From NCBI GenBank assembly GCA_903894295.1, contig CAITPI010000102.1, positions 1 through 41,745 of the forward strand: 41,745 nt of DNA, read 5' to 3'. The stretch's first letter is position 1; the number at the start of each line of letters is the position of its first letter. The DNA comes from an uncultured Acidimicrobiaceae bacterium (GTDB taxonomy: Bacteria; Actinomycetota; Acidimicrobiia; Acidimicrobiales; RAAP-2). The notes under the pieces were generated by a model. That model had not been told where the DNA came from. It worked only from the letters and a program-made list of their open reading frames with translations, and did no database searches. A program made the position numbers and the translations under genes. Shown piece by piece: positions 14,177 through 30,496 of the stretch.

Positions 14177-15351
14177 CGGGCCGCCGACCGGGCCCTCCAT
14201 CGCATCAGCGGCCGTTCCATGGCGTACCAACTGGCGACGGCGATGCCGAAGATGACGGCCAGCCGGAGCAGTTCGGTCGGCCAGTAGCCCCAGTGGGTGC
14301 CGTACTGACCCGGTTCCAGTGCGAGGTAGACCGGAAAGTGCACGAGGTAGATCGTGTAGGACAGGTCGCCGACGAAGACGAAGACGCCGAGGCCGACGAA
14401 GGCCGAGGCCCAACTTTTCGGGGCCACCACGAAGTGGACGATGATCAAGGCGCAGGCGACGGTCGTCAAGGGCAGCCACCAGGTGGCGACGTTCTCGGTG
14501 AAGAGGTGGGAGGTGAACAGGATCCATCCCATAAAGCCGGTGGCCAGAAGGGCTGCGGCCGATTCCAGGTTGACCAGCCACCGGGGCCAGTTGGACAGGA
14601 AGCCGTCCGAGGCCAGCAAGCCGAGCAGGCACCCGAGGAACATCGCGTCGGCCCGGGAGTCGAAGGCGTAGTAGATCCGGGTGAAGGTGACGTTGGTGAA
14701 GTGGCTCGGTTCGAGCGCCAGATAGAGGCGGTCGGCCAGGCTGGCGGCGACGCCCACGATGGCAAAGCCATAGGCCAGTTTCTTCCGGTGCAAGGCGACG
14801 GCCACCATGAGCAGGACCGACCAGATGATGTAGAACTGCTCTTCGACGGCCAGCGACCAGCTCTGGGCGAGGTAGCCGAAGAACGGAGCGTGGCCCAGCG
14901 CCTGGCGGTAGTCGGCGTAGTAGAAGAGGGTGGCCGCCGAGTCCCCCCAGAGTCTCTGCGAGGCATCGGCCACGTGCACGAGGGCGCCGTAGACGGCCAG
15001 CAGGCCAACGGTCAGGAGCAGTGGCGGCAGCAGCCGCACGGCCCTTCTGGCATAGAAGTTCCTGACCGAGATCGTTCCGTTGCGCTGCCACTCGCCGGAG
15101 AGCATGGCGGTGATCAGAAAGCCCGAGAGTACAAAGAAGACCTGGAGCATGGCCCAGGCGCCCGGCATGGTGTGGAAGTTGGAGTGGTAGACCAACACGG
15201 CAGTGACTCCGAGTGCCCGAACTCCGGTGAGCGGCGGTCGGTTGCCCAGGCGGAACCGGCGGGTTTCGCCGGTCTCCCCGGACGTTCCGGTATCGGCGCT
15301 GGCGGGCACCGGAGCGGGAACCGCGGCCGACGGCGTATCGCTCGTCTGCAT
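14173..15351 (-). CDS. Plain acyltransferase-3 membrane protein, minus-arm copy
   Basis: 392 residues with the AT3 domain only: RLGNRPPLTGVRALGVTAVL with Arg45 and His56, VFFVLSGFLITAML, AQSWSLAVEEQFYIIWSVLL, and about ten helices ending in the typical MERPLMRW. There is no SGNH domain. AT3 proteins move acetyl or other acyl groups onto sugars of envelope polymers. It is closely similar to the gene at 23482 (shared FRLGNRP, ALTG/PLTG, IWGDSAA or LWGDSAA, and FYYxDYR stretches), so the two are paralogues in opposite arms of the locus. Start: a TACCAT -10 box ends 7 nt before this ATG, and the longer open frame upstream is Arg-rich. Its stop overlaps the AT3/SGNH start. Confidence 0.88.
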   Translation of the reverse strand: MQTSDTPSAAVPAPVPASADTGTSGETGETRRFRLGNRPPLTGVRALGVTAVLVYHSNFHTMPGAWAMLQVFFVLSGFLITAMLSGEWQRNGTISVRNFYARRAVRLLPPLLLTVGLLAVYGALVHVADASQRLWGDSAATLFYYADYRQALGHAPFFGYLAQSWSLAVEEQFYIIWSVLLMVAVALHRKKLAYGFAIVGVAASLADRLYLALEPSHFTNVTFTRIYYAFDSRADAMFLGCLLGLLASDGFLSNWPRWLVNLESAAALLATGFMGWILFTSHLFTENVATWWLPLTTVACALIIVHFVVAPKSWASAFVGLGVFVFVGDLSYTIYLVHFPVYLALEPGQYGTHWGYWPTELLRLAVIFGIAVASWYAMERPLMRWRARSAAR

Positions 15352-15358
15352 CCGGGTG

Positions 15359-15364
15359 ATGGTA
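15359..15364 (-). promoter_or_regulatory. -10 box of the minus-arm AT3 pair (leaderless)
   Basis: TACCAT on the minus strand, 7 nt before the ATG at 15351. The following bases (CACC) are the same as those after the TACCAT box of the next gene at 17413, so the two operon-internal promoters look alike. No -35 is recognised. Confidence 0.45.
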
Positions 15365-15433
15365 TCCCAGCCGCCCGGCCGGGCCACGGCGTCACCCTGG
15401 CGCCTGGTCGCGGATCGGGTCCGTGCTCTCCGA

Positions 15434-17413
15434 TCAGCCGGAACTGCGGAGGTGCAGGACACAGGCGGGAATCGTGCCCCATTCCGCCTCCGGCCGGTTG
15501 TCACAGTTCGCCAGTTCGGCGGCGCTCAACGGCACCGGCGAGTGGCCCGGAGCCGTGGACCACACCCAGGCGTGCTGCTGATAGGTGGGCAAGGAGCCCA
15601 TGAGGGCGGTGGTGAAGGCCAGTCCGTAGGCGGTGCCCCGGCCGATCTGGTAGGCCTTCAGCTCCTGGCCGTCGGGCACCACGACGGTCGTCACGCCCCA
15701 GTCAGCCATGGCCTTCCGGGCGGCCGACAGGTTGGCGGCGTCAGGCTCGGGCGGTGGCACGAGGGTCAGGGCGGCGTTGCGCAGAACGACAAAGCCCGGT
15801 CGTTCGGCCCCGGCATGGGCGACGGTCCCCGAGGGCCCACCGCCACCGGCCATCTGGTAGTGCATGCCACTGATGGCTTGCCAGGGGATGGCGGCCTGGG
15901 AGTCGGCGGTGGCAAAGGGGTAGGTCAGGAGGACCGATCTGGCGTCCAGGGTGGGCCCGACCTGGCGAAACCAGAGCGGAACACTGGTGGACTGCACAAC
16001 CAAAGGGACGTTTGGGGCCAGCACCCACCACAGCGGAGCAAGGGCCACGGCAGCGATCGCAACGGGGGCGAGGTCACAGAGTCGTCGTCCGGCTCCAAAC
16101 CGGTCCCGCATGGCCTCGCGGGCATGCTCGAGGACGATGGCCAGCATGATGGCAAGGGCGAGGTCGATCTCGGCCGAGAATCGGGACTGGAGGGCATCCT
16201 GGAAGAGTGGGACGTGTAAGAAAACCGACCAGGGGCTCCACAGTCCGGGTGCCACCCGCAGGCTGAAGGCGGCCAGAATCACCGCCAGGGCACCGAAGAA
16301 CCACAGGCGCCGGTCCCGGCGCCAGACCACCACGCCGATGACCGGGACGGCGATCAGGCCGGGGCCGAGGTAGGAGGGGGCCGGCCCGGCCGGGCCGAGA
16401 TAGCCACCGAGCGTCCGGGCCTGGAGGGCGAGGAGGTTGGCGCCGACCGGGCCCCAGGAGCCGACGGCACTCCAGAAGTTGGAGACGGCATTTCCCAGGT
16501 TGCCGGGAATGTTGGTGCTCCACACGACGGTGCCGAGGTGGGCCGGACCGGCCAGGAAGAACCACATCGGATAGGCCAGAACGATGACCGACAGTCCGAA
16601 TGCCACCGAAAGGCCACGGCCGATGAAGGGCAGCCGTTGCCGGATCTCGGCCCGGTGGCCGACCAGTCCCCAGACCACAAGGAGGACGGTGGCGATGGCG
16701 GCGGAGAAGGCAAAGAGCAACAACATCTCGGTGGAGAGGAAGAACTGCACGACAACCATCGCCCCGAGGGCCAGCCCACTGCGCCAGGCCGGACGACGCT
16801 GGCGGATCAGGAGTTCCTCGAGGGTCGCCACGAGGAACGGGAGCAGAAAGATGCTGGTCAGGTTCAGCCAGCCGTAGGCAAGTTGGGGAATCACGAAGAC
16901 GCTGAAGCCGAAGGCCAGTCCGCCGACAAAGGCGGCCGGCGTCCAGCGCACGTATCGGTGGGCCACGATGAAGAGGGCCATGGCATCGGCCACCGGGATC
17001 AGCGTGTTGGCCACGTTCATGCTGACAACCGGGCCGAACAACCACGTCACAGGGGCCAGAACAACGCCGAGGGCGGGAACGCTGGTGTCCGAGAGCAGGT
17101 TGATTCCCCCGGGATGAAACAGGTAGGAGGAGTAGAGCGGGTTGTGCCCGTGGGCGAGGGCGGTCGCCACCCACTGGAGGAACCAGACCATCCGTCCGGC
17201 ATCGGTGCAGGCACAGGTCATCTCGCCACTCGGACTTCCGGTCCAGATGTGCCACCACAGGACGACCGACAGGACGAGATAGCAGACACCGGCGATGACA
17301 ACGGCCCGCATCGTCGGCCGAACGGCCGAACCCGAGTGTTTGGTGGTGCGGGGCGACGCGTCGTGCAGACCTTTCTGGCCGATGGCCACCGGGTCCGATG
17401 TCGTCACCGTCAT
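15434..17413 (-). CDS. TCxCxD-family GT-C-like membrane protein, paralogue A
   Basis: 659 residues. One helix (about 37-56), then an outer loop with TCACTD (66-71) followed by NPLYSSYLFHPGGINLLSDTS; helices continue to about residue 460, and a soluble C-terminal domain has ADSQAAIPWQAISG and a GGGGP loop near residue 520. Two cysteines close the protein (Cys637, Cys651 in ACVLH). The topology, with an Asp just outside helix 1, is that of GT-C glycosyltransferases; the two loop cysteines and the tail pair may form disulfides outside the membrane. Four paralogues lie in this window (17445, 19402, 26570, 28502); the next gene upstream is the closest, sharing TCACTD. Start MTVTTSDP fits a TACCAT box 7 nt upstream. 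Sugar unknown. Confidence 0.78.
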   Translation of the reverse strand: MTVTTSDPVAIGQKGLHDASPRTTKHSGSAVRPTMRAVVIAGVCYLVLSVVLWWHIWTGSPSGEMTCACTDAGRMVWFLQWVATALAHGHNPLYSSYLFHPGGINLLSDTSVPALGVVLAPVTWLFGPVVSMNVANTLIPVADAMALFIVAHRYVRWTPAAFVGGLAFGFSVFVIPQLAYGWLNLTSIFLLPFLVATLEELLIRQRRPAWRSGLALGAMVVVQFFLSTEMLLLFAFSAAIATVLLVVWGLVGHRAEIRQRLPFIGRGLSVAFGLSVIVLAYPMWFFLAGPAHLGTVVWSTNIPGNLGNAVSNFWSAVGSWGPVGANLLALQARTLGGYLGPAGPAPSYLGPGLIAVPVIGVVVWRRDRRLWFFGALAVILAAFSLRVAPGLWSPWSVFLHVPLFQDALQSRFSAEIDLALAIMLAIVLEHAREAMRDRFGAGRRLCDLAPVAIAAVALAPLWWVLAPNVPLVVQSTSVPLWFRQVGPTLDARSVLLTYPFATADSQAAIPWQAISGMHYQMAGGGGPSGTVAHAGAERPGFVVLRNAALTLVPPPEPDAANLSAARKAMADWGVTTVVVPDGQELKAYQIGRGTAYGLAFTTALMGSLPTYQQHAWVWSTAPGHSPVPLSAAELANCDNRPEAEWGTIPACVLHLRSSG

Positions 17414-17420
17414 GGAGGTG

Positions 17421-17426
17421 ATGGTA
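17421..17426 (-). promoter_or_regulatory. -10 box of paralogue A (leaderless)
   Basis: TACCAT on the minus strand with 7 nt (CACCTCC) to the ATG at 17413, lying in the 31-bp gap after paralogue B. The CACCTCC resembles anti-Shine-Dalgarno rather than a ribosome site, which fits leaderless initiation. Confidence 0.45.
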
Positions 17427-17444
17427 GCGGCGGTGTCCCGGATC

Positions 17445-19400
17445 TCACGAAGCCGCAGGGGGATGGGCGAGTACACAGGACGGCACCCGAGCCAGGTCAC
17501 GCACGGTGGATACTCCGGTCGTGCAGGCCTGAAGGGCTTCGGCGGTGGTCGGGTGGGGTGGTGCCGCAAGAGAAGTGTGGTTCCAGACCCAGGCGCCACC
17601 ACCCAATGGCGAGAACCGGGGAGCGGTGCCCATGGTGGCCGTGTAGAAACCGAGGCCATACGCGGTGGAGCGGCCGGTCAGGTAGGCGGGGAGGTCGCTT
17701 CCGACGGGAACAACGACTTCGGTGACCCCCCACTGGCGGAAGGCCCGGCGAACGGCAGTCAGATTTTCCGCGTTGGGGTCCGGTGGGGGAGACAGGGCAA
17801 GGGATGCCGCGTGCAGCACCGAGAAGCCCTGTTCTTCGGCACCGGCCCGGTCGACGGTGCCGGCCGGCCCACCACCGCCGGCCATCTTGTAACTGAGCCC
17901 GGTGATGGCCTGCCAGGGGATGGCAGCCTGGGAGTCGGCGGTGGGAAACGGATACGGGGCCAGCACGTCGGTCGGATCGAGCCGGGGCGCCTCGGCCGTG
18001 AACCAGCCTGGTACGTAAATGGACTGCACCGTGAAGGGCAACGTGGGTGCCATGACGATGATCAACGGACCGCAGGCGACCGTCGCCAGGGCAGCCGATG
18101 CGCTTTTCGCCCATGGCTCTCCCCGGGGTTGGAGCCACCGATGCATCTGGTCGACGGCGAGGGCGACGATGATGGCCAGGGAGAGGTCGACCACGGCCGA
18201 GAAGCGGCCCTGCACCACCTCGGTGAGCAACGGCCAGTGGTCGAGGAGCGCCCACGGCGCCCAGGTGAGCCCACCCGTTCCTCCGACCTGCAAACTCAAC
18301 AGAGCGGCCACGACCGCCAGGGCGCCGAAGAACCAGAGCCTGCGGTCTTTCGGTGCCAGGGCGAACGCAACGGCGGTGACCAAGAGGATGCCCGGTCCGA
18401 GGTAGGACGGGTGGGGCCCGGTCGGGCCCAGATAGCCGCCGAACGTCTCCCGGAGCGCGTGGCCGAGGAAGACGTTGGTGTCGAGGGTGTGCCAGAAGGT
18501 TCCCCAGGTGTTTCCGATGGCACCGGGCACGTTGGTGGTCCACACGACGGTCCCAAGGTGGGCCGGCCCGAAAAGGAAGAACCACAAGGGGTAGGCCAGC
18601 AATACCACTGCGACACCGGCGGCCACGCCCAGGGCGCACACGGCATGGTGGAGCCGCTTGGTCAGTTCCCTCCGGTGGCCGATGGCGGCGTGGCCAACGA
18701 GGAGGACGAGGGACACGGCCGAGGTGAGGGCCGCGACCACCAGCATCTCGGTCGACAAAAAGAACTGGACGACCACAACGAGGCCCAGGAGCACGCCGGT
18801 TCGTCCGGCCGGCCGTGACTGCCGGACGAGGAGGTCATCGAGAAGCCCAACGATCACCGGAAAGAGGAAGAGGGCGGTCATGTTGAGCCAGCCATATGTG
18901 AGCTGCGTGAGCAGATAGGCGGAGAAGCCGAAAAGCAGCCCACCGACCCAGGCGGCGGGCGACCAGTCCACCCAGCGGCGCAGCAGCCAGAAGCAGGCCA
19001 GGGCATCAAGGGCCGGCAGAAGGGTCTGTGCCACGTTCATGCTCACCACCGGCCCGAAGAGCCAGGTGACGGGAGCCAGCACCACCCCAAGCGCCGGCAC
19101 GCTCGTATCGTCGAGGAGGTTGATGCCACCGGGATGGAACAACCAGGTTGAATACAGGGGATTGAGGCCGTGGCGGAGGGCGTACGCCACCCAGTCGAGA
19201 TACCAGACCATGCGTCCGGCATCGGTGCACGCACAGGTCATCGTGCCGGACGGACTGCCGGTCCAGACGTTCCACCAGAGGATGATGGCCAGCACCAGAT
19301 AGAGCGCCGCGGCCAACAGCAGGCCCGCCCGACCTGGTTTCCCGCCGCCGGTCGGACTGACGACCGGACGGTCGTCAACGGTCGGGGGCGTGGCTGTCAT
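17445..19400 (-). CDS. TCxCxD-family GT-C-like membrane protein, paralogue B
   Basis: 651 residues, same architecture as paralogue A: helix 1 (about 26-43), TCACTD at 55-60, LFHPGGINLLDDTSVPALG, about ten helices, then an outer domain with ADSQAAIPWQAITG and GGGGP, and a tail cysteine pair (Cys626, Cys642). Long stretches match A nearly residue for residue (for example PALGVVLAPVTWLFGPVVSM), and the DNA around both TCACTD codons is almost identical, pointing to a tandem duplication. The ATG at 19400 lies one base after the TGA of paralogue C, so translation is probably coupled; an ATG 14 codons further upstream would overlap C and is less likely. Function inferred as polyprenyl-sugar-dependent transferase. 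Confidence 0.78.
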   Translation of the reverse strand: MTATPPTVDDRPVVSPTGGGKPGRAGLLLAAALYLVLAIILWWNVWTGSPSGTMTCACTDAGRMVWYLDWVAYALRHGLNPLYSTWLFHPGGINLLDDTSVPALGVVLAPVTWLFGPVVSMNVAQTLLPALDALACFWLLRRWVDWSPAAWVGGLLFGFSAYLLTQLTYGWLNMTALFLFPVIVGLLDDLLVRQSRPAGRTGVLLGLVVVVQFFLSTEMLVVAALTSAVSLVLLVGHAAIGHRRELTKRLHHAVCALGVAAGVAVVLLAYPLWFFLFGPAHLGTVVWTTNVPGAIGNTWGTFWHTLDTNVFLGHALRETFGGYLGPTGPHPSYLGPGILLVTAVAFALAPKDRRLWFFGALAVVAALLSLQVGGTGGLTWAPWALLDHWPLLTEVVQGRFSAVVDLSLAIIVALAVDQMHRWLQPRGEPWAKSASAALATVACGPLIIVMAPTLPFTVQSIYVPGWFTAEAPRLDPTDVLAPYPFPTADSQAAIPWQAITGLSYKMAGGGGPAGTVDRAGAEEQGFSVLHAASLALSPPPDPNAENLTAVRRAFRQWGVTEVVVPVGSDLPAYLTGRSTAYGLGFYTATMGTAPRFSPLGGGAWVWNHTSLAAPPHPTTAEALQACTTGVSTVRDLARVPSCVLAHPPAAS

Positions 19401-19401
19401 G

Positions 19402-21288
19402 TCAGGCGGCACGCAGAACGCACGCCGCCACGGCGTCGTCACCCGGGTTCAGCGTTTCGCCCTGCCAGCATCGGGCAAACTGCTCTGGTGTCATGACGAC
19501 GGGGGACGGGCCCGACCGGGTCACGGTCCAGATCCAGGCCTGATGGAGATAGGTCGGGGACTGCCCGAGTGAGGCGGTGAAGAAGGCCACTGCGTACGGA
19601 ACCGGTCGGCCCCGGTCGTAGACCGGGAGGCCGGGCTGGTCCGGGACCACGATCGTGGTCACGCCCCAGCCATCAAGTGCCTGGCGGACGTCCGTGAGGT
19701 TGGATTCGGTGGGTTGCGGTTCCGGATCCAACGGAAGTGAGGCGGCCGCCAGCACCAGAAACCCGGGTCGTTCCGGACCGGCCCGCGACACGGTGATCCC
19801 CGGGCCTCCGCCCCCGACCATGGAGAAGGTCAGGCCGGCCAGGGTCTGCCAGGTCATCGAGGACTGGATGCCGCCAAGAGCGGCGGGATAAGGCAGGACC
19901 ACATCGTTGGGTCCGAGTTGGCTTCCGGTCGAGGTGAACCAGGCGGGAGCCGCCACCGCTTCGGTGGTGAACGGAAGGTTCGGCGCAAGGATGGCCACCA
20001 CCGGAAGCAGGGCGAAGGTACAGGTCGCCCAGGTTGCGAGACGACGGCGTGCCGGCCGGGCCGCCCGCAACCGGTTCTCCAGGTGGTCAAGCACGATGGC
20101 CAGCGAGATGGCGAGCGACGAGGCCGATATCACCCCAATGTTGACCGGCACGACGTTGTTGAGTACCGGAACCGAGGTGAAGAGGCGCCACGGAGTCCAG
20201 ACGCCGTCGACCACACCGAAGGAGAGGACGACGGCGACGGCGCCGAGTCCGCTGAAAAGCCACAGACGACGATCGTGACGCCAGAGGACGGTGCCGACCC
20301 CGACGATGACGAGGACACCGAAGCCAAGCAGGCCGAGGCTGGGCAGCCGAGGCCCCTGGTAGCCACCGAAGAGGTGCATGATGTTGGTCAGACCCTCCGA
20401 CACCTTTCCGGCCACAAGGTCCCATGGAGTCGTGGCCACCGTGCCCGGTGGCGTGTCGGGCCAGGCCCGGCCGACCAGATGGGCCGGGCCGGCGAAGAAC
20501 GACCACAGCGGGTATCCCAGTAGGGCCACCGCCACCCCCATCGCCACCCAGAGTCCGGTGGCAGCCTGGCGACCACGGGCGACGAGGCGCATCCGGAGTT
20601 GCCGGTTGACCAACCCGGCGACCGCCAGAACGCCGAGGGTGAACACGGCGAAGAGCACCATCAACGTGAGGACCTCGACGCTCACGAGGAACTCGACGGT
20701 CACCGCCAGTCCGAGCCAGAGGCCGGTTCGCATCCGGGACCGGCGGTCGGACGCGTCCACCAGCAGATCACCGGCAAGTCCGATGATGACCGGGACCGGG
20801 GCCAGCAGAGAGAAGTTCGGATGGGCCAGGGCCAGGCTGGTGAGAACAAAGGGCGAGAATGCGAAAAAGAGGGCGCCGGTGGCGACCGCGGCCGGGCGGA
20901 GGCCCCACCGGCGAAGCAGCCACACCATGGCGAGGCCGGACAGGATCGGGGAGCAGATGTCGATGACGTTGAGGGTGGCGACCGGTCCCCAGATCCAGGT
21001 CACCGGGGCAAAGGCGAAGCCGAGACCAAGCGAGTTGGGCGCCATGTTGATGCCGTTGGGTACGAGGAGCTGCCGTGAATAGAAGGGATTGAGCCCGTGG
21101 CTGATGGCGTAGGCAGGCCACTTGAGGACCCAGAGGGTGAGGGATGCATCTCCGCAGCCACACGTGGTCACCGAGGCCAGATGGCCGAGCGTGTGCCACC
21201 AGAGTCCGAGGGACAACACCGAGAACAGTGCCGTGAAGCCAAGGTACGTGCGACCGGCACCGGCGTTTCGGGTCTCGGCGGATGTCAT
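19402..21288 (-). CDS. TCxCxD-family GT-C-like membrane protein, paralogue C
   Basis: About 628 residues. TCGCGD at 42-47, NPFYSRQLLVPNGINMAPNS (this copy has VPNG where the others have FHPxG), around ten helices, then an outer domain with SSMTWQTLAGLTF, GGGGP and RAGPERPGF, and a tail cysteine pair (Cys607, Cys623). It is the first gene of the minus arm. The start is uncertain: MTSAETRN at 21288 gives an N-terminus like the paralogues, while in-frame ATGs at 21360-21369 overlap a TATGAT promoter element and would add about 27 residues of little character. The TCGCGD motif groups it with D and E rather than with its neighbours A and B. Confidence 0.75.
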   Translation of the reverse strand: MTSAETRNAGAGRTYLGFTALFSVLSLGLWWHTLGHLASVTTCGCGDASLTLWVLKWPAYAISHGLNPFYSRQLLVPNGINMAPNSLGLGFAFAPVTWIWGPVATLNVIDICSPILSGLAMVWLLRRWGLRPAAVATGALFFAFSPFVLTSLALAHPNFSLLAPVPVIIGLAGDLLVDASDRRSRMRTGLWLGLAVTVEFLVSVEVLTLMVLFAVFTLGVLAVAGLVNRQLRMRLVARGRQAATGLWVAMGVAVALLGYPLWSFFAGPAHLVGRAWPDTPPGTVATTPWDLVAGKVSEGLTNIMHLFGGYQGPRLPSLGLLGFGVLVIVGVGTVLWRHDRRLWLFSGLGAVAVVLSFGVVDGVWTPWRLFTSVPVLNNVVPVNIGVISASSLAISLAIVLDHLENRLRAARPARRRLATWATCTFALLPVVAILAPNLPFTTEAVAAPAWFTSTGSQLGPNDVVLPYPAALGGIQSSMTWQTLAGLTFSMVGGGGPGITVSRAGPERPGFLVLAAASLPLDPEPQPTESNLTDVRQALDGWGVTTIVVPDQPGLPVYDRGRPVPYAVAFFTASLGQSPTYLHQAWIWTVTRSGPSPVVMTPEQFARCWQGETLNPGDDAVAACVLRAA

Positions 21289-21358
21289 GGGCGCAAGCGC
21301 ATCGTTCAAGGAGGCTCTGGACGTCGGGCGAAAGACGCCACAACGTGGGGCCAAAGCC

Positions 21359-21364
21359 ATCATA
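21359..21364 (-). promoter_or_regulatory. -10 box for the minus arm (paralogue C)
   Basis: TATGAT on the minus strand, 70 nt before the chosen ATG of paralogue C and 42 bp from the opposing -10 box at 21407. The two arms of the locus therefore appear to fire from one 60-bp divergent promoter region. Confidence 0.4.
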
Positions 21365-21406
21365 ACCATGGGGTCGCCGGAGCCGAGGATTGGTTGCTTC
21401 CCCTGA

Positions 21407-21412
21407 TATCGT
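21407..21412 (+). promoter_or_regulatory. -10 box for the plus arm (leaderless GTG)
   Basis: TATCGT, 8 nt before the GTG at 21421. The spacing matches the other leaderless starts in the window and decides the start of the small secreted protein. Confidence 0.5.
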
Positions 21413-21420
21413 GCCGTTCC

Positions 21421-21930
21421 GTGCCTCCGAACGGCCGGTCCAATCCCACCCGATCCGGACCGTTGCAACGGCGAACCCTCCTGGCGGCGGTGGCCATCGT
21501 GGCGGTGGCGGCAACCGGGCTCGGATGGGAGTCGGCCCACGCCGCCAAGGTGGTCAAACGCCAAGGTGATGCCCAGACCGGGCAGGCGGCGGCGGAAGAC
21601 AACGCCTTCTACCGGTGCCTGGCCGTTCAGGCCCACAGTCTGGTTGCCCCCGGGGAGCCGGTGCTTGACGCTTCACTGGCCGGTGCGCCGCTCAACCTGG
21701 CCGAGTACATCGCCCTGTTCAAGGCCACCGGTGGCTGGGTCACCGTGGCGTCGTCCCGGGCCGATGCGGTCGGCCTGTTGGATGTCAAACAGGTTGCACC
21801 CGGGCCGGGAACCTGTCGGGGCTTCGTCGTGATCCTTGAGACCCGGGACCATGACGGCCATGCCGTCATCAGGCGGGGTCGTGGTGCATCAGTGGGTGGA
21901 ACCGGCTTTCCGCCACCGACGCCACTATGA
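21421..21930 (+). CDS. Small secreted or anchored protein of unknown function
   Basis: 169 residues from a GTG start chosen by the -10 box 8 nt upstream; the open frame extends further upstream but would overlap the divergent promoter and read as low-quality sequence. A basic stretch (LQRR) is followed by a hydrophobic core (about 19-33) and a signal-peptidase-like ESAHA-AK site. The mature part of about 130 residues has two cysteines (FYRCLAVQAH and GTCRGFVV), a likely disulfide, and a Gly/Pro-rich end (GGTGFPPPTPL). No known domain is recognised. It is the first gene of the plus arm, facing the TCxCxD genes, and its stop overlaps a nine-codon ORF leading into the next gene. Confidence 0.65.
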   Translation: MPPNGRSNPTRSGPLQRRTLLAAVAIVAVAATGLGWESAHAAKVVKRQGDAQTGQAAAEDNAFYRCLAVQAHSLVAPGEPVLDASLAGAPLNLAEYIALFKATGGWVTVASSRADAVGLLDVKQVAPGPGTCRGFVVILETRDHDGHAVIRRGRGASVGGTGFPPPTPL

Positions 21931-21956
21931 GCGCGTTCGGATTCCGGGTCGCCTGA
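21927..21956 (+). other. Nine-codon ORF bridging two genes (possible coupling peptide)
   Basis: ATG overlaps the stop of the secreted-protein gene (ATGA), the ORF reads MSAFGFRVA, and its TGA ends exactly where the next ATG (21957) begins. It is in the same frame as the next gene. It could keep ribosomes moving from one gene to the next, or be chance. No separate ribosome site is seen for the 21957 start. Confidence 0.35.
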
Positions 21957-23513
21957 ATGGTTGCGTCGAGTCTGTTGGTCCTTCTTGTTCTCGCCGTGGC
22001 CGGCATGGCGCCGGCCCTGGCGATGGTCGGCCGATCCTGGGTGGTGGCTCCGTTCTCGGTGTTGGTCGGATCGATCATCGCTGCGTCATCGGCCACGGCC
22101 GTCGTGTTGCTGGGCGGAGGTCTCCTCGAGTGGTTTTGGTCGTTGGCCGCGGCGCTGGCCGCGGCGCTGGCCGTGGCCAGGTACGCCCGCTCCGGCGCCC
22201 GGCCAACCCGGCCTCCGGCTTCGGTTCCCGACCGTCGCCTGATCTGGATGGTTGGCATCATTGGCGCCTTGGCGATCATCTCGGCGACGGCGTGGGGCCT
22301 GATGGACCTGCGTTCGGCGACGACCGGTTTCGATGCGCGGGCCGTCTGGATTCTCCGGTCGGGTTGGCTGCTGGAACCTCACCACGAGCTGCTGGTGAAC
22401 CTGCGGTCCCGCTATGTCGGACTCGGACAAACGGCGTATCCGCCCCTGGTCAGTGCCGTCGGTGCCCTGGCCTGGGGTGTGACCGGGCAACACTCTGAAC
22501 GCCTCGCGACAGTGGCCATCGCCCTCGTGAACTCCTGTGCTCTCATCATGGCCACCAGCGTGTTCGTCGTGACGGCCCAACGTTGGGTAGCCGGAGCACC
22601 AGTGACCGAAGAAGTCGTCACGGTTCGCGGAACGCCGGCGGGGTGGCTGCAGCGAAACCGAGTGGCACCCAGCGGGCTGTTGGGGGTGGCCGCGGCGCTG
22701 GTGGCCGGACTGGTTGTCGTGACGGCGTTCGGCGTGACGGAGCCGTTCATGACCAACGGATACGCCGACCCGGCCTGGTCGCTGGCGGCGGTGGGAGCCC
22801 TCACCTGGGGCCTGCAGGCCGAATCACGTCCATCGTGGCGGATGGTGGCGCTTGCCTTGGCCGTGATGGCGGGGATGACCAAGGACGAAGGGGTCTTCAA
22901 CGCCATCGCCCTGGTGGTGCTGATTGTCGCCCGACCATTGGCTGGGATCTGGTGGAACGGGTCGGGCCAGGCCGGACCTGGGCGTCGGCTTCACGATGGC
23001 GTCCGACCACTGGTGGAAGGTGCGGTGGCGCTGGCGTTGATTGCCGCCTGGCCGGTTGCGATACGGATCGTTCACGCCCGTGGGCAGTCCGCTCCGCTGA
23101 CGTTTGTCGATTTGTGGAGCCGGACCATCCAGTCGGCGCAGGGACTGGAGCCCTACCTCCACGGCCTCGTCTGGGCGGCCGGTGCATCACTCATCGGATG
23201 GCTGGCCCTCCGTCCCGTTCGGCGACGACTCCGACTGGCCAACGACGCCTGGGGGTGGACCGGAACGGTTGCCGGTTGTGTCATCTTCACCCTCCTGTTT
23301 GCGACCGGTGGTGGGGCGGTCGGGCCCCATTTGCTGTCGGCGGGCCACCGGGTGAGCGAGTTCGTCGACCTGGCCCCGTGGTGGATTCTTGGCATGTGGG
23401 CGATTGCAGCGGTGGCGGCCCTGGTGGAAGGATCCCTCGAGCGCGGGTCAACCTCTACCTGTGGAGTGCCGGTGGGCCAGAATGGTCGGGATCACGATGG
23501 CCCTGACGACTGA
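21957..23513 (+). CDS. GT39-like polytopic membrane glycosyltransferase
   Basis: 518 residues with about 12 hydrophobic segments starting right at the N-terminus. The loop TGFDARAVWILRSGWLL (Asp126) followed by GQTAYPPLVSAVGALAW resembles the (W/F)DARAIW ... YPPL signature of GT39/ArnT-like GT-C enzymes, which take sugar from polyprenyl phosphate. A later MTKDEG motif also recurs in that group. It follows the secreted-protein gene by 26 bp, bridged by a nine-codon ORF, and overlaps the plain AT3 gene downstream. The ending (GVPVGQNGRDHDGPDD) is hydrophilic. Acceptor unknown. Confidence 0.72.
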   Translation: MVASSLLVLLVLAVAGMAPALAMVGRSWVVAPFSVLVGSIIAASSATAVVLLGGGLLEWFWSLAAALAAALAVARYARSGARPTRPPASVPDRRLIWMVGIIGALAIISATAWGLMDLRSATTGFDARAVWILRSGWLLEPHHELLVNLRSRYVGLGQTAYPPLVSAVGALAWGVTGQHSERLATVAIALVNSCALIMATSVFVVTAQRWVAGAPVTEEVVTVRGTPAGWLQRNRVAPSGLLGVAAALVAGLVVVTAFGVTEPFMTNGYADPAWSLAAVGALTWGLQAESRPSWRMVALALAVMAGMTKDEGVFNAIALVVLIVARPLAGIWWNGSGQAGPGRRLHDGVRPLVEGAVALALIAAWPVAIRIVHARGQSAPLTFVDLWSRTIQSAQGLEPYLHGLVWAAGASLIGWLALRPVRRRLRLANDAWGWTGTVAGCVIFTLLFATGGGAVGPHLLSAGHRVSEFVDLAPWWILGMWAIAAVAALVEGSLERGSTSTCGVPVGQNGRDHDGPDD

Positions 23514-24747
23514 CGAGCACGCCCAACCGCAGGCCCCAGAGGCCACGAAGCCTCCGTTCCGCCTTGGCAACCGACCGGCCTTGACCGGTCTGCGGGCTCC
23601 GACGATGGCGTTCGTGCTCATCTTCCACTCGAACTTCCAGACCCTTCCGGGGGCCTGGTTGTCGCTCGGGGTGTTCTTCGTGCTCTCGGGATTCCTGATC
23701 ACCACGATGCTGCTGAGTGAACATCAGCGCGACAGCCGGATCAGTGTGTCGAAATTCTATGGTCGCCGGGCCACGAGGCTGCTGCCCCCTCTGGTGGTTG
23801 CCGTGGTTCTGCTCGGCCTCTACGCCTGGATCGTTCCGGTTCAGAACGCCGCCCAACGGATCTGGGGTGACTCGGCTGCGGCGGTGTTCTACTACTCCGA
23901 CTACCGCTCGGCGTTCGGTCACGAACCCTTCGGCGGATTCATGGCCCAGTGCTGGTCCTTGGCGGTGGAGGAGCAGTTCTACATCGTCTGGTGCGTCCTG
24001 CTCGTCGTGGCCCTGAAGTTCGGACACCGGAAGGCGGCCTATGCCGTGGCCATCGGCGGCGTGGTCTTGTCGGGTCTCGACCGCATCGGGATCGTCCTTG
24101 CCGCCCCCCACTGGAACAGCGTGGTGGCCGGACGTGTCTATTACGCCTTTGACACCCGGGCCGATGCCATCTTCCTCGGGTGCATCCTCGGCCTGATCGC
24201 CACCGGTGGTCACCTTGACGACTGGCCACAATGGGCCCAGCGGCTCCTCACCGCCAGCGCCCTGGTGGCGACCGGCGTGATGGTCTGGGTGCTCGTGTCG
24301 GTGGGTCTGGCGTCGCGTTGGCTGCCCCTGGTGTGGATCCCGGTGATCGACGTTGCCGCGGTCGTACTGATCCTCTACTTCGTGATCCGGACCGACGGCT
24401 GGGGCACCCGTTTGATGGGACTGTCGGTCCTGGTGCTGCTGGGCAACATGTCCTATGCCGTCTACATCCTCCACTGGCCGGTCTATGTGGCCATCAGTCC
24501 CTTCACGGTGCACTGGCCCTTCGCCGTCGAGGAGTCGGTCCGCCTGGTGATCATCCTCTCACTCGCCGCCGCCAGCTGGTTCCTGCTCGAGCGGCCCCTG
24601 ATGAGGTGGAGGCGTCGCCATGAGGCAGCATTTGCCCCACCGATTCCCGGATCGGTGCTCATCGGCACATCCGGTCCCGGGGCGTCCGCCCATGGGGACC
24701 CGGGCGGGGTCGCGGCCTCGTCGTCGGCCGCGGTGTCGGGTTCTTGA
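23482..24747 (+). CDS. Plain acyltransferase-3 membrane protein, plus-arm copy
   Basis: About 421 residues: FRLGNRPALTGLRAPTMAFVLIFHSN with Arg38 and His49, VFFVLSGFLITTML, AQCWSLAVEEQFYIVWCVLL, and LLERPLMRWRRR at the end of the AT3 domain, then a Gly/Ser/Ala-rich tail of about 40 residues not present in the minus-arm paralogue (14173-15351). The start overlaps the previous gene by 32 bp at this ATG, which has GGTGG at reasonable spacing; an ATG at 23497 (MALTTDE) is an alternative. The gene ends in TTGA, shared with the start of the AftB-like gene. Role inferred as O-acylation of an envelope glycan. Confidence 0.87.
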   Translation: MVGITMALTTDEHAQPQAPEATKPPFRLGNRPALTGLRAPTMAFVLIFHSNFQTLPGAWLSLGVFFVLSGFLITTMLLSEHQRDSRISVSKFYGRRATRLLPPLVVAVVLLGLYAWIVPVQNAAQRIWGDSAAAVFYYSDYRSAFGHEPFGGFMAQCWSLAVEEQFYIVWCVLLVVALKFGHRKAAYAVAIGGVVLSGLDRIGIVLAAPHWNSVVAGRVYYAFDTRADAIFLGCILGLIATGGHLDDWPQWAQRLLTASALVATGVMVWVLVSVGLASRWLPLVWIPVIDVAAVVLILYFVIRTDGWGTRLMGLSVLVLLGNMSYAVYILHWPVYVAISPFTVHWPFAVEESVRLVIILSLAAASWFLLERPLMRWRRRHEAAFAPPIPGSVLIGTSGPGASAHGDPGGVAASSSAAVSGS

Positions 24748-26573
24748 CGACGACCGAGGTTCCACCGGAGGCGGCCACCCGGGTCACCCGGCGATCCGGG
24801 GTTCCCGACTGGGTGTTGCTGACCGCCCCGTTGGTCCTGGTTCTGGTGGGGGCGTGGATCTACCGCTGGGTGGACGAGGACGCCTTCATCAACTTCCGCA
24901 TCATCGACAACCTTCTGGGCGGTTCGGGACCGGTCTTCAACGTCGGTGAGAGGGTTGAGGTCGATTCGGATCCCCTGTGGATGTTCACCCTCGCCGCGCT
25001 CCATGGTCTGATTCCCTGGATCACCCTGGAGTGGTTGTCGGTGTGGCTCGGACTCGTTTGTACGGCCGGAGGATTCGTCGCCGGGGGTCGGGCCATCCAG
25101 CGCCTCGGCCGGTACCGGGGGGACGGACCGGTCTTTCCGTTGGGTCTGCTCATGGTGTCCTCGGTGGCCGGTACCTGGATGTTCGCCACATCGGGTCTCG
25201 AGATGTCGATGGTCTTTCTCTGGTTGGGCTGGAGCTTCCTTTGCCTTGTGCGGGTCGAGGCCCGCCGGTCGCGCGCCGGATGGACCGCCTTCTTGATGGG
25301 CCTTGGTTTTCTCCTGCGGCCGGAACTCGGACTGTGCTCCCTGGCCTTTCTGGCGGGATTGCTGCTGGTCATCTCGGCGCCCGGATGGGTAGGACGGGGC
25401 CGGAAGGGCACGGGGGCGAAGGGCATCGACGGTTCCGGCCGGGGTAGCCGATGGGGCCGTTACGGTGTTCCCTTGGTGGCCGCGCTGGCCCTGCCGATCC
25501 TGGTCGAACTCGCCCGGATGGCCTACTACGCCCAGCTCGTGCCCAACACCGGCCTGGCCAAGGCGGGAACCTCGTTGTGGGTGAACCAGGGATTCACCTA
25601 TCTCTGGAATCTGCTCGCTCCCTACACCTTGTGGCTGCCGCTCCTTCTGGTGGCCCCCCTGGTGGGGGCCCGGGTCGTCCGGTGGTGGCAAGGCGGTGAC
25701 CGTATGGGGGTCGTGGTGCTCCTGACCCCGCTGGTCGTGTCCCTCGTGGACGTGGCCTACGTGGTGGCCGTCGGCGGTGACTACATGCACGCCAGGCTGC
25801 TGCTGCCGGCCCTGTTCTCCCTCTCGTTGACGGTCTATGTCGGGGCCGGCCAGTGGAAGACGTTCTGGTTGGCTCCGGTGGGAGCCGTCCTGGTGTGGGT
25901 CATCGTCTGCGCAGGCTGGTTGCGTTACCAGCCACCGCCCGTCCACTCGCTCAACCCCCAGGCCGACATCATCAGCAACGAACGTGACGGCTGGGTCCGG
26001 GCTACGGGCAACGCCCATCCCGTGAATGCCTCCGACTATGACGGCGCCTTGTCCGGCCGTACCGGCCGGGCCCTGGCGAAGGCGGCAAACCGGGTTCCCG
26101 CCGGTCAACAACGGATGATCGTGGTGGCCAACGCCTTTGCCCCGGTTGACTACGTCGGTGTTCCGGCCCGGTCAACCTTGCCGTTCTCCCTTGTGGTGAA
26201 TGTTCCGGCCATCGGAGTCATCGGCTATCTGGCCGGCCCCAAGGTCTACCTGTTCGACACGTTCTCTCTCGCCAATCCGGTGGGAAGCCACACGATCGTG
26301 GTCATGCACACCCGACCCGGCCACGAGAAACTCATCGGACCGACCTGGATGGTGGCCCGCTTCGCCCGTGGGGTGCCACGAGGTCCATCGGTGACGGCGG
26401 CCCGCCGGGCACTTTCGTGTGAACCACTGAAGGGCTATCTGGCTGCGATCACGGCACCGTTCGGATGGGGTCAGGCGTGGTCGGACGTCATCCATTCGTG
26501 GTCGAACACGACCATGTCGTTCAGCGCCGATCCGGTCACGGCGGCCCGTCAGCTGTGCGACCCGCCGTCATGA
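24744..26573 (+). CDS. AftB-like GT-C arabinofuranosyltransferase
   Basis: 609 residues, close to the roughly 627 of Rv3805c/AftB. RWVDEDAFINFRIIDNLLGG (41-60) holds the catalytic-type acidic cluster (Asp44, Glu45, Asp46), followed by GPVFNVGERVEVDSDPLW, a near match to the AftB loop. Further AftB-like blocks are MFATSGLEMSMVF, MAYYAQLVPNTGLAKAG, GGDYMHARLLLPALFSL, ATGNAHPVNASDYD, and the C-terminal outer domain with FDTFSLANPVGSHT. AftB adds terminal beta-1,2-arabinofuranose from decaprenyl-phospho-arabinose. The start is a TTG overlapping the preceding TGA (TTGA); the end overlaps the next ATG (ATGA), so translation is coupled on both sides. The match is to the family; the exact linkage here is unproven. 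Confidence 0.87.
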   Translation: MTTTEVPPEAATRVTRRSGVPDWVLLTAPLVLVLVGAWIYRWVDEDAFINFRIIDNLLGGSGPVFNVGERVEVDSDPLWMFTLAALHGLIPWITLEWLSVWLGLVCTAGGFVAGGRAIQRLGRYRGDGPVFPLGLLMVSSVAGTWMFATSGLEMSMVFLWLGWSFLCLVRVEARRSRAGWTAFLMGLGFLLRPELGLCSLAFLAGLLLVISAPGWVGRGRKGTGAKGIDGSGRGSRWGRYGVPLVAALALPILVELARMAYYAQLVPNTGLAKAGTSLWVNQGFTYLWNLLAPYTLWLPLLLVAPLVGARVVRWWQGGDRMGVVVLLTPLVVSLVDVAYVVAVGGDYMHARLLLPALFSLSLTVYVGAGQWKTFWLAPVGAVLVWVIVCAGWLRYQPPPVHSLNPQADIISNERDGWVRATGNAHPVNASDYDGALSGRTGRALAKAANRVPAGQQRMIVVANAFAPVDYVGVPARSTLPFSLVVNVPAIGVIGYLAGPKVYLFDTFSLANPVGSHTIVVMHTRPGHEKLIGPTWMVARFARGVPRGPSVTAARRALSCEPLKGYLAAITAPFGWGQAWSDVIHSWSNTTMSFSADPVTAARQLCDPPS

Positions 26574-28426
26574 CCCGAACGGACAACCCGACGGCGACGG
26601 AGGTCTCCGGGCCGGATCACGCCAATGCATCCCGGAGCCGCCATCCGGGCCCGGTCACCACCGCAGCCGCCCTCTATCTCGCCGCCGCGGCGGTCCTCTG
26701 GTGGCAGGTCTGGTCGACGCATCCGACGTCGGTGACGACATGCGGATGCGGCGATGCCGCCCGTTTCACCTGGTTCTTCTCCTGGCCGGGCTACGCCCTG
26801 ACGCACGGCCAGTCGCTCTGGTTCACGACGTGGCTGTTCCACCCGGGAGGGCTCAACCTGCTGGACGACACGAGTGTGGTGGCCCTCGCTCTGCTGCTGG
26901 CCCCGGTGACGGCCCTCTTCGGTCCCGTGGCAGCGATGAATGTCGCACTGACCCTGGCTCCCGCCTTTTCGGCCTTCACCATGTTCCTCCTGCTGCGGCG
27001 GTGGGTGACGTGGAGTCCGGCGGCCTTTCTCGGCGGGGTTGTCTTCGGATTCTCACCTTTCGTCCTGACGTCGTTGGCCCTCAACCAGATCAACATTGCC
27101 TTTCTGGGGCTCTTGCCCCTGATGGTGCTGGTGGTGAACGACCTGGTGACCGGCCGCGGCTCACCGAGATGGCTCACCGCAAGCCTGGTCGGGCTGCTGG
27201 TGGTCCAGTTCTTTGTCAGTACCGAGGTGCTGCTCATTGCCGGACTGATGGCCACTGTGGCGCTCGTTGGGTACGCAGCGGTCCGGACTTCGGACCGCTT
27301 CCGCTCGCCCCCGACCCGAACCCGGAATGATCAGAGCCCGTCAACAACCTGGATCCCTCCGGTGGTTCTGGCGCTGGCGGTCGCCGGGGTGGTTCTCGCC
27401 TACCCCTTGGGATTCCTGCTGTGGGGGCCGGCCCATCTGGACGGACCCGTCTGGTCCAGTGGATCCCTGGCCCACTACGGGACCACGTGGTCGATGCTGT
27501 GGTGGCCCCAGCCGATGGTTTCCCTACGGGAGGCCATGCTGCAGTTCGGGGGCTACCAGGGGGCGGCCCTCCCGGCGCTGGGTGGATTGGGGGCGGGAGT
27601 GGTGATCGCCGGAGCGGCAGGGTCCATCTGGCTCCTGGTGACCCGCCGGAACCTCCGGGTGGGACTGCTGGTCCTGGTGGGACTGGTCGCCACCGTCCTG
27701 TCGCTGGCACCAGGGCAGGGCTACTGGGTGCCGTGGTCGACCATCGAGTCCTGGCCGGGCGTCGGCAACATCGTCGAAGTCCGCTTCGTCCTGGTTGTGA
27801 TGTTTGTGCTGGCGGCCGTGGGTGCCATCGCCCTGGACCAACTGCGGGTCACCCTCCTGCCCCGGCTCGGCCCGGCGGTCTTGCCCCTGTTGGTGGTGCT
27901 CGGCGTCCTGGTCCTCGTGCCCTCGGCGGCCTTGTTCGCCGGAAACCTGCCCCTGACCGCCGTCAAGGTGGTGACGCCGACCTGGTACGAGACGGCGGCC
28001 GGTCGGGTGGGAGCGCACCAGGTTGTCCTTGCCTATCCGGTGCCGTTCTCCGGTTTGCAGTCGTCGCAGGTGTGGCAGGCCGAAGCGGGGAACGTCTTTG
28101 CCCAGGCCGGCGGGGGAGGCCCGGCGGGTGAAGCCTCCCGGGCCGGTGTGGCGGCACCGGGATTCACCGTGCTGGCCGCAGCGTCGCTGCCCCTGGGTCC
28201 CGCTCCCGGGCCGACGGTCGCCCAACGGGCCAGCGTCCGCCGGGCGTTGGTGCACTGGGGAGTCACCCTGGTGGTGGTGTCGGCCCAGCGGGATCTGCCC
28301 GGCTATGACTTCGGCCGGGGCCCGCGCTACGCCCGGACGTTCTTCACCGCCGTCCTGGGATGGTCTCCCGCATTCCAGGACGGCGCCTGGGTCTGGTCGG
28401 ACGTATCGGCCCGACTGGGCTCATGA
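26570..28426 (+). CDS. TCxCxD-family GT-C-like membrane protein, paralogue D (short tail)
   Basis: 618 residues. TCGCGD at 57-62, TWLFHPGGLNLLDDTS, about ten helices, then the outer domain (SSQVWQAEAG, GGGGP, GDxxRAGVAAPGF-like region). Unlike the other four paralogues it stops at GAWVWSDVSARLGS, lacking the last 30-40 residues with the C...CVL cysteine pair. The start is fixed by the ATGA overlap with the AftB-like gene; the longer frame upstream reads the end of that gene out of phase. A 21-bp block including TCGCGD codons (26735-26755) is identical to one in paralogue E (28658-28678). The missing tail may mean altered folding or a different partner rather than loss of function, since the rest is intact. 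Confidence 0.76.
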   Translation: MTRTDNPTATEVSGPDHANASRSRHPGPVTTAAALYLAAAAVLWWQVWSTHPTSVTTCGCGDAARFTWFFSWPGYALTHGQSLWFTTWLFHPGGLNLLDDTSVVALALLLAPVTALFGPVAAMNVALTLAPAFSAFTMFLLLRRWVTWSPAAFLGGVVFGFSPFVLTSLALNQINIAFLGLLPLMVLVVNDLVTGRGSPRWLTASLVGLLVVQFFVSTEVLLIAGLMATVALVGYAAVRTSDRFRSPPTRTRNDQSPSTTWIPPVVLALAVAGVVLAYPLGFLLWGPAHLDGPVWSSGSLAHYGTTWSMLWWPQPMVSLREAMLQFGGYQGAALPALGGLGAGVVIAGAAGSIWLLVTRRNLRVGLLVLVGLVATVLSLAPGQGYWVPWSTIESWPGVGNIVEVRFVLVVMFVLAAVGAIALDQLRVTLLPRLGPAVLPLLVVLGVLVLVPSAALFAGNLPLTAVKVVTPTWYETAAGRVGAHQVVLAYPVPFSGLQSSQVWQAEAGNVFAQAGGGGPAGEASRAGVAAPGFTVLAAASLPLGPAPGPTVAQRASVRRALVHWGVTLVVVSAQRDLPGYDFGRGPRYARTFFTAVLGWSPAFQDGAWVWSDVSARLGS

Positions 28427-28427
28427 T

Positions 28428-28491
28428 CCACGACCTTCCCATCGCCTTGTCCCGACCGGTGGTCGTGGCGTGATGGGAACGGGGACGGGAC
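28428..28491 (+). repeat. Interlaced inverted repeats between paralogues D and E
   Basis: In the 75-bp gap: CCACGACC (28428-28435) pairs with GGTCGTGG (28461-28468), TTCCCATC (28436-28443) with GATGGGAA (28472-28479), and GTCCCG (28449-28454) with CGGGAC (28486-28491). The order is 1-2-3-1'-2'-3', so the stems cross instead of nesting. It may be a pseudoknot-like or switching mRNA element, a processing site, or an operator. There is no U-tract, so it is not an ordinary terminator. Confidence 0.45.
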
Positions 28492-28501
28492 CTCTCCTAG
28501 C

Positions 28502-30496
28502 ATGACCAACTTGACGATGGAAGACGCCACCGAAACCCGAGGGTTGCCCAAGAGGCGTCGTGGCCCGGCGGGTGCCACGCTCTGGGCGAGCGCGGCCTAC
28601 CTCATTGTCTCACTGGTGGTCTGGTGGAATGTCTGGAGTTCGCATCCGACGACCACCACGACATGCGGATGCGGCGATTCATCTGAGTTCACGTGGTACC
28701 TGGGCTGGCCCGCCCATGCCATCTCCCACGGACTGAACCCTCTCTACTCGGCGGACCTCTTCCATCCCGTCGGCATCAACCTGTTGTCCAACACGAGCGT
28801 TCTGGCCCTCGGTGTGCCGCTGGCCCCGGTGACGTGGGCATTCGGGCCGGTGGCGACCCTGAATGTGGCCCTCACTCTGGCTCCGGTCCTGTCGGCGTTG
28901 GCCATGTTCTGGCTGTTGCGGCGTTGGGTTTCGTGGGCGCCCGCGGCATGGATTGGTGGGCTCCTCTACGGCTTTTCACCTTTTGTTCTGGTGGAACTCA
29001 CCGACGCCCACCTCATGCTGGGCATGGCAGTGGTCCCGCCGCTGTTGGTTGGGACCCTCGACGAACTGTTGATCCGCCAGGAGCGAAAGCCGGTCCGGGT
29101 GGGCCTGACGCTGGCCGCCCTTCTGGTCCTGCAGTTTTTTCTGGGCACCGAACTGCTGGTGATCACCGTGATGATGACGGCGATCGGAGTCCTTGTGCTG
29201 TTGGTGGCCGGATTGTGGCGGCGGGACGTCCTGGCCGACCGGGCGCGCTATGTGGCCACGGGGCTCGGCGCGGGGGCGGGGGCGACGGTCGTGCTTCTGG
29301 CCTATCCGGCCTGGTTCGCCCTCGCCGGGCCGGCCCATCTCCAGGGTTCGGTCTGGACCCAGGGCTATCTCGGCCTCGGGGGAATCGACTTTCGCAGCTA
29401 CTTCCTGGGCGATGCGCCTTCGGCCGGTTACGCCCGCCTGGCCCGACGGGTGGGTGGCTACCAGGGCCCCACCCTGTCGGGCCAGTATCTGGGTGTCGGC
29501 CTGGTGGCGGTGGTGGCGGCGGGACTGCTTCTTTGGTGGCGGGACCGGAAGATGTGGCTGTTTGCCATTGTGGGTGCCGTTTCCGTCTGGTTCTCGATCG
29601 ACATCCTCCAGACCTACTGGGTCCCGTCGAAGGTTCTCGTCCGGGTACCCCTGGTCCAGAACATCATTCCAAGCCGGTTCCTGGCGGTGACCTACCTCTG
29701 CGTCGCAGTGCTGCTGGGCCTTGTCGTCGACCACGTGTATCGGGCCATTCTGGGTGGCCGATGGTCGCTGGGCCCGGGGGAGTCGGGACGTTCAGCATTG
29801 GGCCAGGTTGTTCCGGGATCACGGGAGCTCCTCTCGGCGCTGGTGGCCGGCGTGGTGGCACTTCTGGCGGTGACCCCGGTGATCTCCTATGAAGCCCAGA
29901 ACACGCCCATGACCGCCCAGGGCGTGGTGGTGCCGAAGTGGTTCACCGAAGTCGGCTCGCGGTTGGGACCCGGGCACGTCGTTGTGACGGTTCCGGTTCC
30001 CATCGGACTGATCCAGAGCGCCCTGACGTGGCAGGCCGTCACGGGATTCCCCTTTGCCATGGTTGGCGGGGGTGGGCCGGAAGGTTTGATCAGCCGGGCC
30101 GGCCGGGAAGCACCAGGGCAGGCGGCCCTCGTGGCGACCTCCTTCTCGTTCTCTCCGGTGACGACAACGCCGGCCACCATCGACCACCTGCGGTCCGCCC
30201 TCGATGAGTGGGGGGTCACCGACGTCGTGATCCCTGATCCGACCGGCACGCCCCTGTATCAGCACCCTGGATCGGTGCCCTTGGCCGTTGGGGTCTTGAC
30301 CGCTGCCCTGGGCCGTGGACCCCGCTGGCAGGCCGATGCGTGGGTGTGGAACAACGTCAAAGTGTCTCCGGCTCCGCTCGAGCTGCCCCCCGGCCAGGTC
30401 GCCGCCTGTGCCGGGACGACCGGGACAGAACTGCGGAGAGAAGTGTCGGCCACCGTGACGTGCGTCCTCAAGGCTGGTCGGGGCACTCGTTCGTGA
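28502..30496 (+). CDS. TCxCxD-family GT-C-like membrane protein, paralogue E
   Basis: 664 residues. TCGCGD at 54-59, NPLYSADLFHPVGINLLSNTS, about ten helices, then the outer domain with SALTWQAVTGFPFAMVGGGGP and a tail cysteine pair (Cys636, Cys654 in VTCVLKAG). Architecture and motifs match A-D. It starts 75 bp after D behind the interlaced repeats; no clear -10 box or ribosome site precedes the ATG. Its TGA overlaps the GTG start of the AT3/SGNH gene (GTGA), so the pair is co-translated, suggesting that the sugar it adds may be what the acyltransferase decorates. That link is inference. Confidence 0.77.
   Translation: MTNLTMEDATETRGLPKRRRGPAGATLWASAAYLIVSLVVWWNVWSSHPTTTTTCGCGDSSEFTWYLGWPAHAISHGLNPLYSADLFHPVGINLLSNTSVLALGVPLAPVTWAFGPVATLNVALTLAPVLSALAMFWLLRRWVSWAPAAWIGGLLYGFSPFVLVELTDAHLMLGMAVVPPLLVGTLDELLIRQERKPVRVGLTLAALLVLQFFLGTELLVITVMMTAIGVLVLLVAGLWRRDVLADRARYVATGLGAGAGATVVLLAYPAWFALAGPAHLQGSVWTQGYLGLGGIDFRSYFLGDAPSAGYARLARRVGGYQGPTLSGQYLGVGLVAVVAAGLLLWWRDRKMWLFAIVGAVSVWFSIDILQTYWVPSKVLVRVPLVQNIIPSRFLAVTYLCVAVLLGLVVDHVYRAILGGRWSLGPGESGRSALGQVVPGSRELLSALVAGVVALLAVTPVISYEAQNTPMTAQGVVVPKWFTEVGSRLGPGHVVVTVPVPIGLIQSALTWQAVTGFPFAMVGGGGPEGLISRAGREAPGQAALVATSFSFSPVTTTPATIDHLRSALDEWGVTDVVIPDPTGTPLYQHPGSVPLAVGVLTAALGRGPRWQADAWVWNNVKVSPAPLELPPGQVAACAGTTGTELRREVSATVTCVLKAGRGTRS

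Follow-up and report, generated by a model that had tools for sequence, protein, structure and literature searches.

The window analysed here is a 41,745-nucleotide stretch of DNA from an uncultured Acidimicrobiaceae bacterium, a soil actinobacterium (assembly GCA_903894295.1, contig CAITPI010000102.1). It contains five paralogous open reading frames (ORFs) of 653-744 codons each, referred to below by their positions and arranged in two blocks: 15434, 17445 and 19402 on the minus strand, and 26570 and 28502 on the plus strand. Between the two blocks lie the genes of an uncharacterised membrane protein, an AT3 acyltransferase and an AftB-like protein. An earlier note, made from the sequence alone, described the five ORFs as a GT-C-like family, and all of them are present. 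The genes are listed below together with the features of the 28502 protein, which provides the residue numbering used throughout (TM, transmembrane helix).

15434..17659, minus strand: family member, subfamily B; ORF from 17659, with a plausible start (MTVTTS) near 17416; lineage-specific twin of 17445
17445..19442, minus strand: family member, subfamily B
19402..21636, minus strand: family member, subfamily A; Asn for Arg before TM10, a change shared by its whole six-member clade
26465-28426, plus strand: family member, subfamily C, with the ATG chosen in the earlier note at 26570; lacks the C-terminal cysteine pair
28502..30496, plus strand: family member, subfamily D; structure-modelled protein with 11 predicted TM helices followed by a C-terminal outer domain
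28664..28678, plus strand: CGCGD in loop 1 of 28502, comprising C55, C57 and the invariant D59 (28676-28678)
29150..29152, plus strand: invariant E217 of 28502 in outer loop 3 (EL3), at the predicted outer end of TM5/TM6
29675..29677, plus strand: R392 of 28502, just ahead of TM10; 94 of the 105 homologues have Arg here
29894..30493, plus strand: outer C-terminal domain of 28502, carrying GGGGP and the C...CVL pair

Pairwise identity among the five proteins is 37-55% over 570-660 residues, and every BLASTP comparison gives E < 1e-89; the five genes are therefore homologous, and their similarity is not due to chance. Two additional copies are located elsewhere in the genome (contigs C114 and C36), which gives a total of seven in 2.7 Mb and 137 contigs; the C114 copy contains one in-frame stop within the matched stretch. 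The motifs by which the earlier note had characterised the family were recovered to different extents. All five proteins contain TC(A/G)C(T/G)D and GGGGP; the C-terminal C...CVL pair is found in four, with 26570 as the exception. NPxYS is likewise found in four and is replaced by SLWFT in 26570. Three proteins (15434, 17445 and 28502) carry LFHPxGINLL unchanged, whereas 19402 has LLVPNGINM and 26570 has GLNLL in its place.

The view that the family has no name is supported by scans of its members against Pfam and NCBIfam, in which none reached a curated cut-off. Sub-threshold Pfam matches were to DUF6541, STT3, GT87, YfhO and DUF2079, which we take to be mostly GT-C members or relatives. DUF6541 (PF20176) was considered as a parent family and rejected, as the matches are below cut-off and its Pfam model finds one genome among 21 relatives. 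A sequence search of solved structures (queries A1 and A2) returned nothing relevant, and a literature search for the family, for an additional gene lying between aftA and embC, and for arabinogalactan of Acidimicrobiia found nothing specific; the name AftE is already taken by a different enzyme. A scan of the genomes of 84,980 species gave 73 loci, mainly in Acidimicrobiaceae-type metagenome-assembled genomes. More distant homologues occur in Streptomyces, Micromonospora, Frankia, Amycolatopsis and Tomitella, among others. Homologues without annotation also occur on PLSDB plasmids. The expansion about which the earlier note had asked is found within the same genus, at 2-10 copies per genome. 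Copy counts from the profile searches, which scored only four candidates per genome, are lower bounds.

The predicted structure places the family among GT-C enzymes. An AlphaFold2 model of 28502, built with 105 sequences, has a predicted local distance difference test score (pLDDT) of 92.7 and a predicted template modelling score (pTM) of 0.93. From TM1 the chain enters a loop in which D59 occupies the first turn of helix 58-75, and then passes through further TM helices to an outer alpha/beta domain; the total of eleven TM helices is read from the secondary structure of the model. TM1-7 together with two juxtamembrane (JM) helices in the first outer loop reproduce the GT-C membrane fold. Every Foldseek match at E < 1e-3 (1.7e-6 to 8.8e-4) is a GT-C enzyme or a complex holding one, and the best PDB matches are STT3, AftD, PglB, PMT, DPY19, AftA and ArnT. 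By VIA, the highest Z scores belong to yeast STT3 (22.0), AftD (21.3, over 482 residues at 4.5 A), PglB (19.2) and Pmt4 (18.8), followed by AftA (16.9), ArnT (15.8), AftB (13.0) and Emb (12.8). The GT-C topology proposed in the earlier note thus holds in the model and in comparisons that include AftB, Emb and ArnT. The outer domain modelled alone (pLDDT 92.7) has no strong Foldseek match. In VIA, its seven highest rows are without exception outer domains of GT-C enzymes, with AftD first and STT3, DPY19 and AglB among them (Z 7.0-4.6); these values are modest taken singly, and for this predicted domain the telling part is that all seven are GT-C.

An alignment of 105 homologues, down to 25% identity, has eight invariant positions (D59, G91, G115, P180, E217, G331, P478 and P498), of which only D59 and E217 are charged (105/105 each). 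In GT-C_A enzymes, an essential Asp is common to the tip of JM helix 1 (PMC12041299), and in a related GT-C family an EL3 Glu and an Arg preceding TM10 contact the metal or the donor phosphate, the Glu contact being known from models and the Arg contact also from solved structures (PMC7801869). D59, E217 and R392 occupy these positions by predicted topology. The suggestion that the loop Asp is a candidate catalytic base is consistent with its invariance and with its modelled place at the GT-C_A catalytic position; the roles of all three residues would follow the same scheme. At the R392 position, all six members of the 19402 clade have Asn, and this replacement is an active-site change that tracks one paralogue line.

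The cysteines behave differently from what had been supposed. TCxCxD had been taken as the mark of the family, but only its Asp is general: CxC is found in 82 of the 105 rows, is limited to an Acidimicrobiaceae-type subgroup and is missing from the outer relatives. As judged from the alignment, the loop-1 Asp is the mark of the family and CxC that of a subgroup. Nor do the cysteines flank the Asp, as both lie N-terminal of it (at -4 and -2). The disulfide clamp proposed for them is unproven. Both cysteine pairs are found in 70 rows, CxC only in 12 (some cut by contig ends), the C-terminal pair only in one and neither in 22, and in the aligned part of the 26570 protein the CxC cysteines are the only ones. 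A clamp joining CxC to the C-terminal cysteines was rejected as a general arrangement, since each pair is found without the other; two independent cysteine pairs would be the simplest reading of the alignment.

The closest kinship detected by profiles is with AftD. Aligned globally, profile to profile, with seven AftD sequences (that of the host itself among them), the family is co-linear over 573 columns (probability 72%, P 4e-6); in the same mode, none of eight other window families (among them the AftB-like and 10052 families) exceeds 0.1%, nor does reversed AftD. In this alignment, D59 pairs with an Asp in loop 1 of AftD. We read this as a distant kinship to the AftD catalytic module rather than as AftD membership, because 44 family members gave no match to PF11847 at E ≤ 1e-3 and the AftD extension is missing. 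Local profile-profile comparison with the AftB-like, 3037, 10052 and 21957 families gave nothing of note.

A tree of 81 members (quick search, LG+G4, SH-aLRT support only) resolves four separate clades, each with orthologues in other genomes: that of 19402 (SH-aLRT 100), that of 15434/17445 (100), that of 26570 (99) and that of 28502, which falls within a 22-row clade at 99. These lines therefore predate the genomes in which they are found and have been kept side by side. 15434 and 17445 pair on their own; on this tree they stem from a recent lineage-specific duplication and do not represent a separate specificity of long standing. The coexistence of old lines suits distinct linkages or acceptors. 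The idea of one enzyme per linkage thus fits the old, separately conserved lines, but is not supported for the recent pair.

The genomic context of the family includes arabinan genes. The host genome encodes DprE1, DprE2 and DPPR synthase above NCBIfam cut-offs, and also AftD. DPPR synthase and the start of dprE1 lie at one contig end and the remainder of dprE1 with dprE2 at another, so the operon is apparently split (C94:3792-5354 and C112:75234-77351; loci L137 and L138). No Emb match (PF04602, Arabinose_trans) was found anywhere in this genome at E ≤ 1e-3, the genome being an estimated ~95% complete. The gene order dprE1-dprE2-aftA-family member-emb was found in three genomes, with the family member at 5779-7668 in Nocardia farcinica NCTC11134 (L120), at 7351-9225 in L131 and at 6739-9372 in L132; the Asp, Glu and Arg are retained in the N. 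farcinica and L131 proteins. All three genomes are of Mycobacteriales type, a group (f92) of which most sampled members have no such homologue. Among Acidimicrobiia-type contigs, a family member adjoins DPPR synthase-dprE1-dprE2 in divergent orientation on one (L074) and lies between two AftD-like ORFs (7995-9281 and 11962-16689) on another (L075); on two more (L053 and L055), AftD is within ~7 kb.

As relatives lie inside the gene cluster of the arabinose cell-wall polymer, the family probably helps to build or decorate a polymer of the type known from tuberculosis bacteria. The reading that we consider likely is that of an active GT-C_A family, unnamed in Pfam and NCBIfam, acting on an arabinan- or arabinogalactan-type glycan, with decaprenyl-phosphoryl-arabinose as the likely donor. 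We infer that each enzyme would take a sugar from a polyprenyl-phosphate carrier at the outer face of the membrane and transfer it to a glycan of the cell envelope. D59, at the tip of JM helix 1, would serve as the catalytic base, E217 and R392 would hold the donor phosphate or a metal, and the acceptor would be held by the outer C-terminal domain. The glycan would most likely resemble arabinan or arabinogalactan and carry acyl groups added by the neighbouring AT3 enzymes, and the paralogue lines would probably differ in the linkage made or the acceptor used.

Several observations weigh against this reading. E217 pairs with Asn, not with an acid, in AftD. Arabinan genes neighbour the family at four of the 73 loci, against a rough expectation of 1.1 that assumes one arabinan locus per megabase (P 0.025), which is only modestly in excess. 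Across the phylum, presence of the wider family is not linked to that of DprE1 (10/62 with and 34/234 without, Fisher p 0.84), and an association at class level (17/21 versus 93/275) disappears outside the host's own family (p 0.16). Genome-wide co-occurrence was rejected as proof of a decaprenyl-phosphoryl-arabinose donor, because phylogeny confounds it and the phylum-level comparison shows no association. Family members also occur in Streptomyces, which is not known to have the decaprenyl-phosphoryl-arabinose pathway. Finally, the arabinogalactan of Nocardia bears repeated terminal beta-glucose on galactan O6 (PMC12794489), and location in an arabinogalactan cluster is therefore no proof of arabinose transfer; no text naming the enzyme for this glucose was found in that paper.

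Some of these observations favour a variant of the GT-C reading in which the enzymes would use a polyprenyl-phosphate hexose (glucose, mannose or other) and decorate an arabinogalactan-like polymer rather than build it with arabinose. The spread to Streptomyces, Micromonospora and Frankia, the lack of tracking with DprE1 and the homologue in the arabinogalactan cluster of N. farcinica, whose genus carries beta-glucose on this polymer, would all suit it. However, an inverting GT-C enzyme with a single Asp and a beta-linked polyprenyl-phosphate donor should yield alpha links and not beta-glucose, the family adjoins dprE1 and aftD genes in Acidimicrobiia, and AftD is the sole tested family with full-length profile similarity. 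We regard hexose transfer as rather unlikely. It is less probable still that some copies, such as the 19402 line, have lost catalysis and serve as partner or scaffold subunits. The Asn in place of the donor-phosphate Arg throughout that clade points this way, but D59 and E217 are retained in all its members, and a clade conserved with a motif of its own fits changed specificity equally well. A flippase or transporter moving lipid-linked sugars or glycans over the membrane, as multi-TM proteins within a glycan cluster might suggest, is very improbable, given that transporter folds appear only at Foldseek E > 0.3 (prob ≤ 0.13, TM ≤ 0.15) and that the invariant acidic residues occupy GT-C catalytic positions.

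Within the preferred arabinan reading, a more specific version may be put forward tentatively: the family would comprise undescribed arabinofuranosyltransferases that replace Emb in Emb-less Acidimicrobiia, with four old lines making one linkage each in an acylated arabinan, and its Nocardia-type member would be an unrecognised enzyme of arabinogalactan assembly. If true, arabinan assembly would go beyond the mycobacterial Emb/Aft set in both spread and variety, and Acidimicrobiia would bear an acylated arabinan-type envelope built by enzymes that have no database name. The Nocardia-type member would then be a specific uncharacterised gene in the arabinogalactan operon, giving a handle on unexplained features of the wall.

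Other genes of the window are the following:

10..1602, minus strand: second AftB-like protein; matches NF041481 at E 2e-57, short of its cut-off
10052..11980, plus strand: uncharacterised multi-TM protein, encoded at the edge of the cluster; also found next to family members in relatives
11993..14185, minus strand: AT3 acyltransferase with SGNH domain; best NCBIfam match SucT, below cut-off
14173..15504, minus strand: AT3 acyltransferase
21957..23513, plus strand: uncharacterised multi-TM protein; likewise found next to family members in relatives
23389..24747, plus strand: AT3 acyltransferase
24744..26573, plus strand: AftB-like protein, resembling the terminal beta-1,2-arabinofuranosyltransferase; top NCBIfam model NF041481 (E 5e-46), well short of its cut-off
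30340..32616, plus strand: AT3 acyltransferase with SGNH domain

SucT is the best NCBIfam match of the AT3 proteins, far below cut-off. In many relatives, a recurrent set consists of AT3-SGNH, AT3, two to four family members, an AftB-like protein and a 21957-type protein. The window has two AftB-like proteins although the genome has no Emb match. The long multi-TM proteins at 3037-5325, 10052-11980 and 21957-23513 (all plus strand) have no Pfam or NCBIfam match and may be additional uncharted envelope enzymes. At 6224-9346 on the minus strand, KAS III-like, thiolase-like and luciferase-like monooxygenase genes and a nucleotidyltransferase gene follow one another; they seem to have no connection with the glycan cluster.

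Among known systems, the family resembles the GT-C module of AftD (PF11847) in fold over model residues 20-640, in its top outer-domain match and in its actinobacterial envelope glycan setting. AftD, however, has ~1300-1500 residues, with a long C-terminal region that carries a carbohydrate-binding module and extra TM helices, whereas the family ends after the outer domain at ~660 residues; the EL3 Glu is not common to both, and the loop-1 CxC belongs to the family subgroup. DUF6541 is approached by sub-threshold matches of 19402 (E 2.4e-5) and of one Mycobacteriales-type homologue (5.2e-5), at 23.2 and 22.1 bits against a gathering score of 29. ArnT, PMT, AftA and Emb share the GT-C fold, the Emb match being weaker, but a sequence match at family level is absent. 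AftB likewise has 11 TM helices, an outer domain and a JM1 Asp (PMC12041299), and AftB-like genes directly adjoin the family; in loop 1 the family has a single D in place of the DD motif of AftB, and its profile similarity to AftB (NF041481, GT89-like) is negligible (hhalign 2.9% local, 0.1% global). STT3, PglB and AglB give the top structural scores (Z 22.0-19.1) and share the Asp at JM1 and the Arg before TM10, in contrast to an identity of 8-12% in structural alignments and a single window protein that matches STT3 (PF02516) below its cut-off (19.2 versus 24.5 bits).

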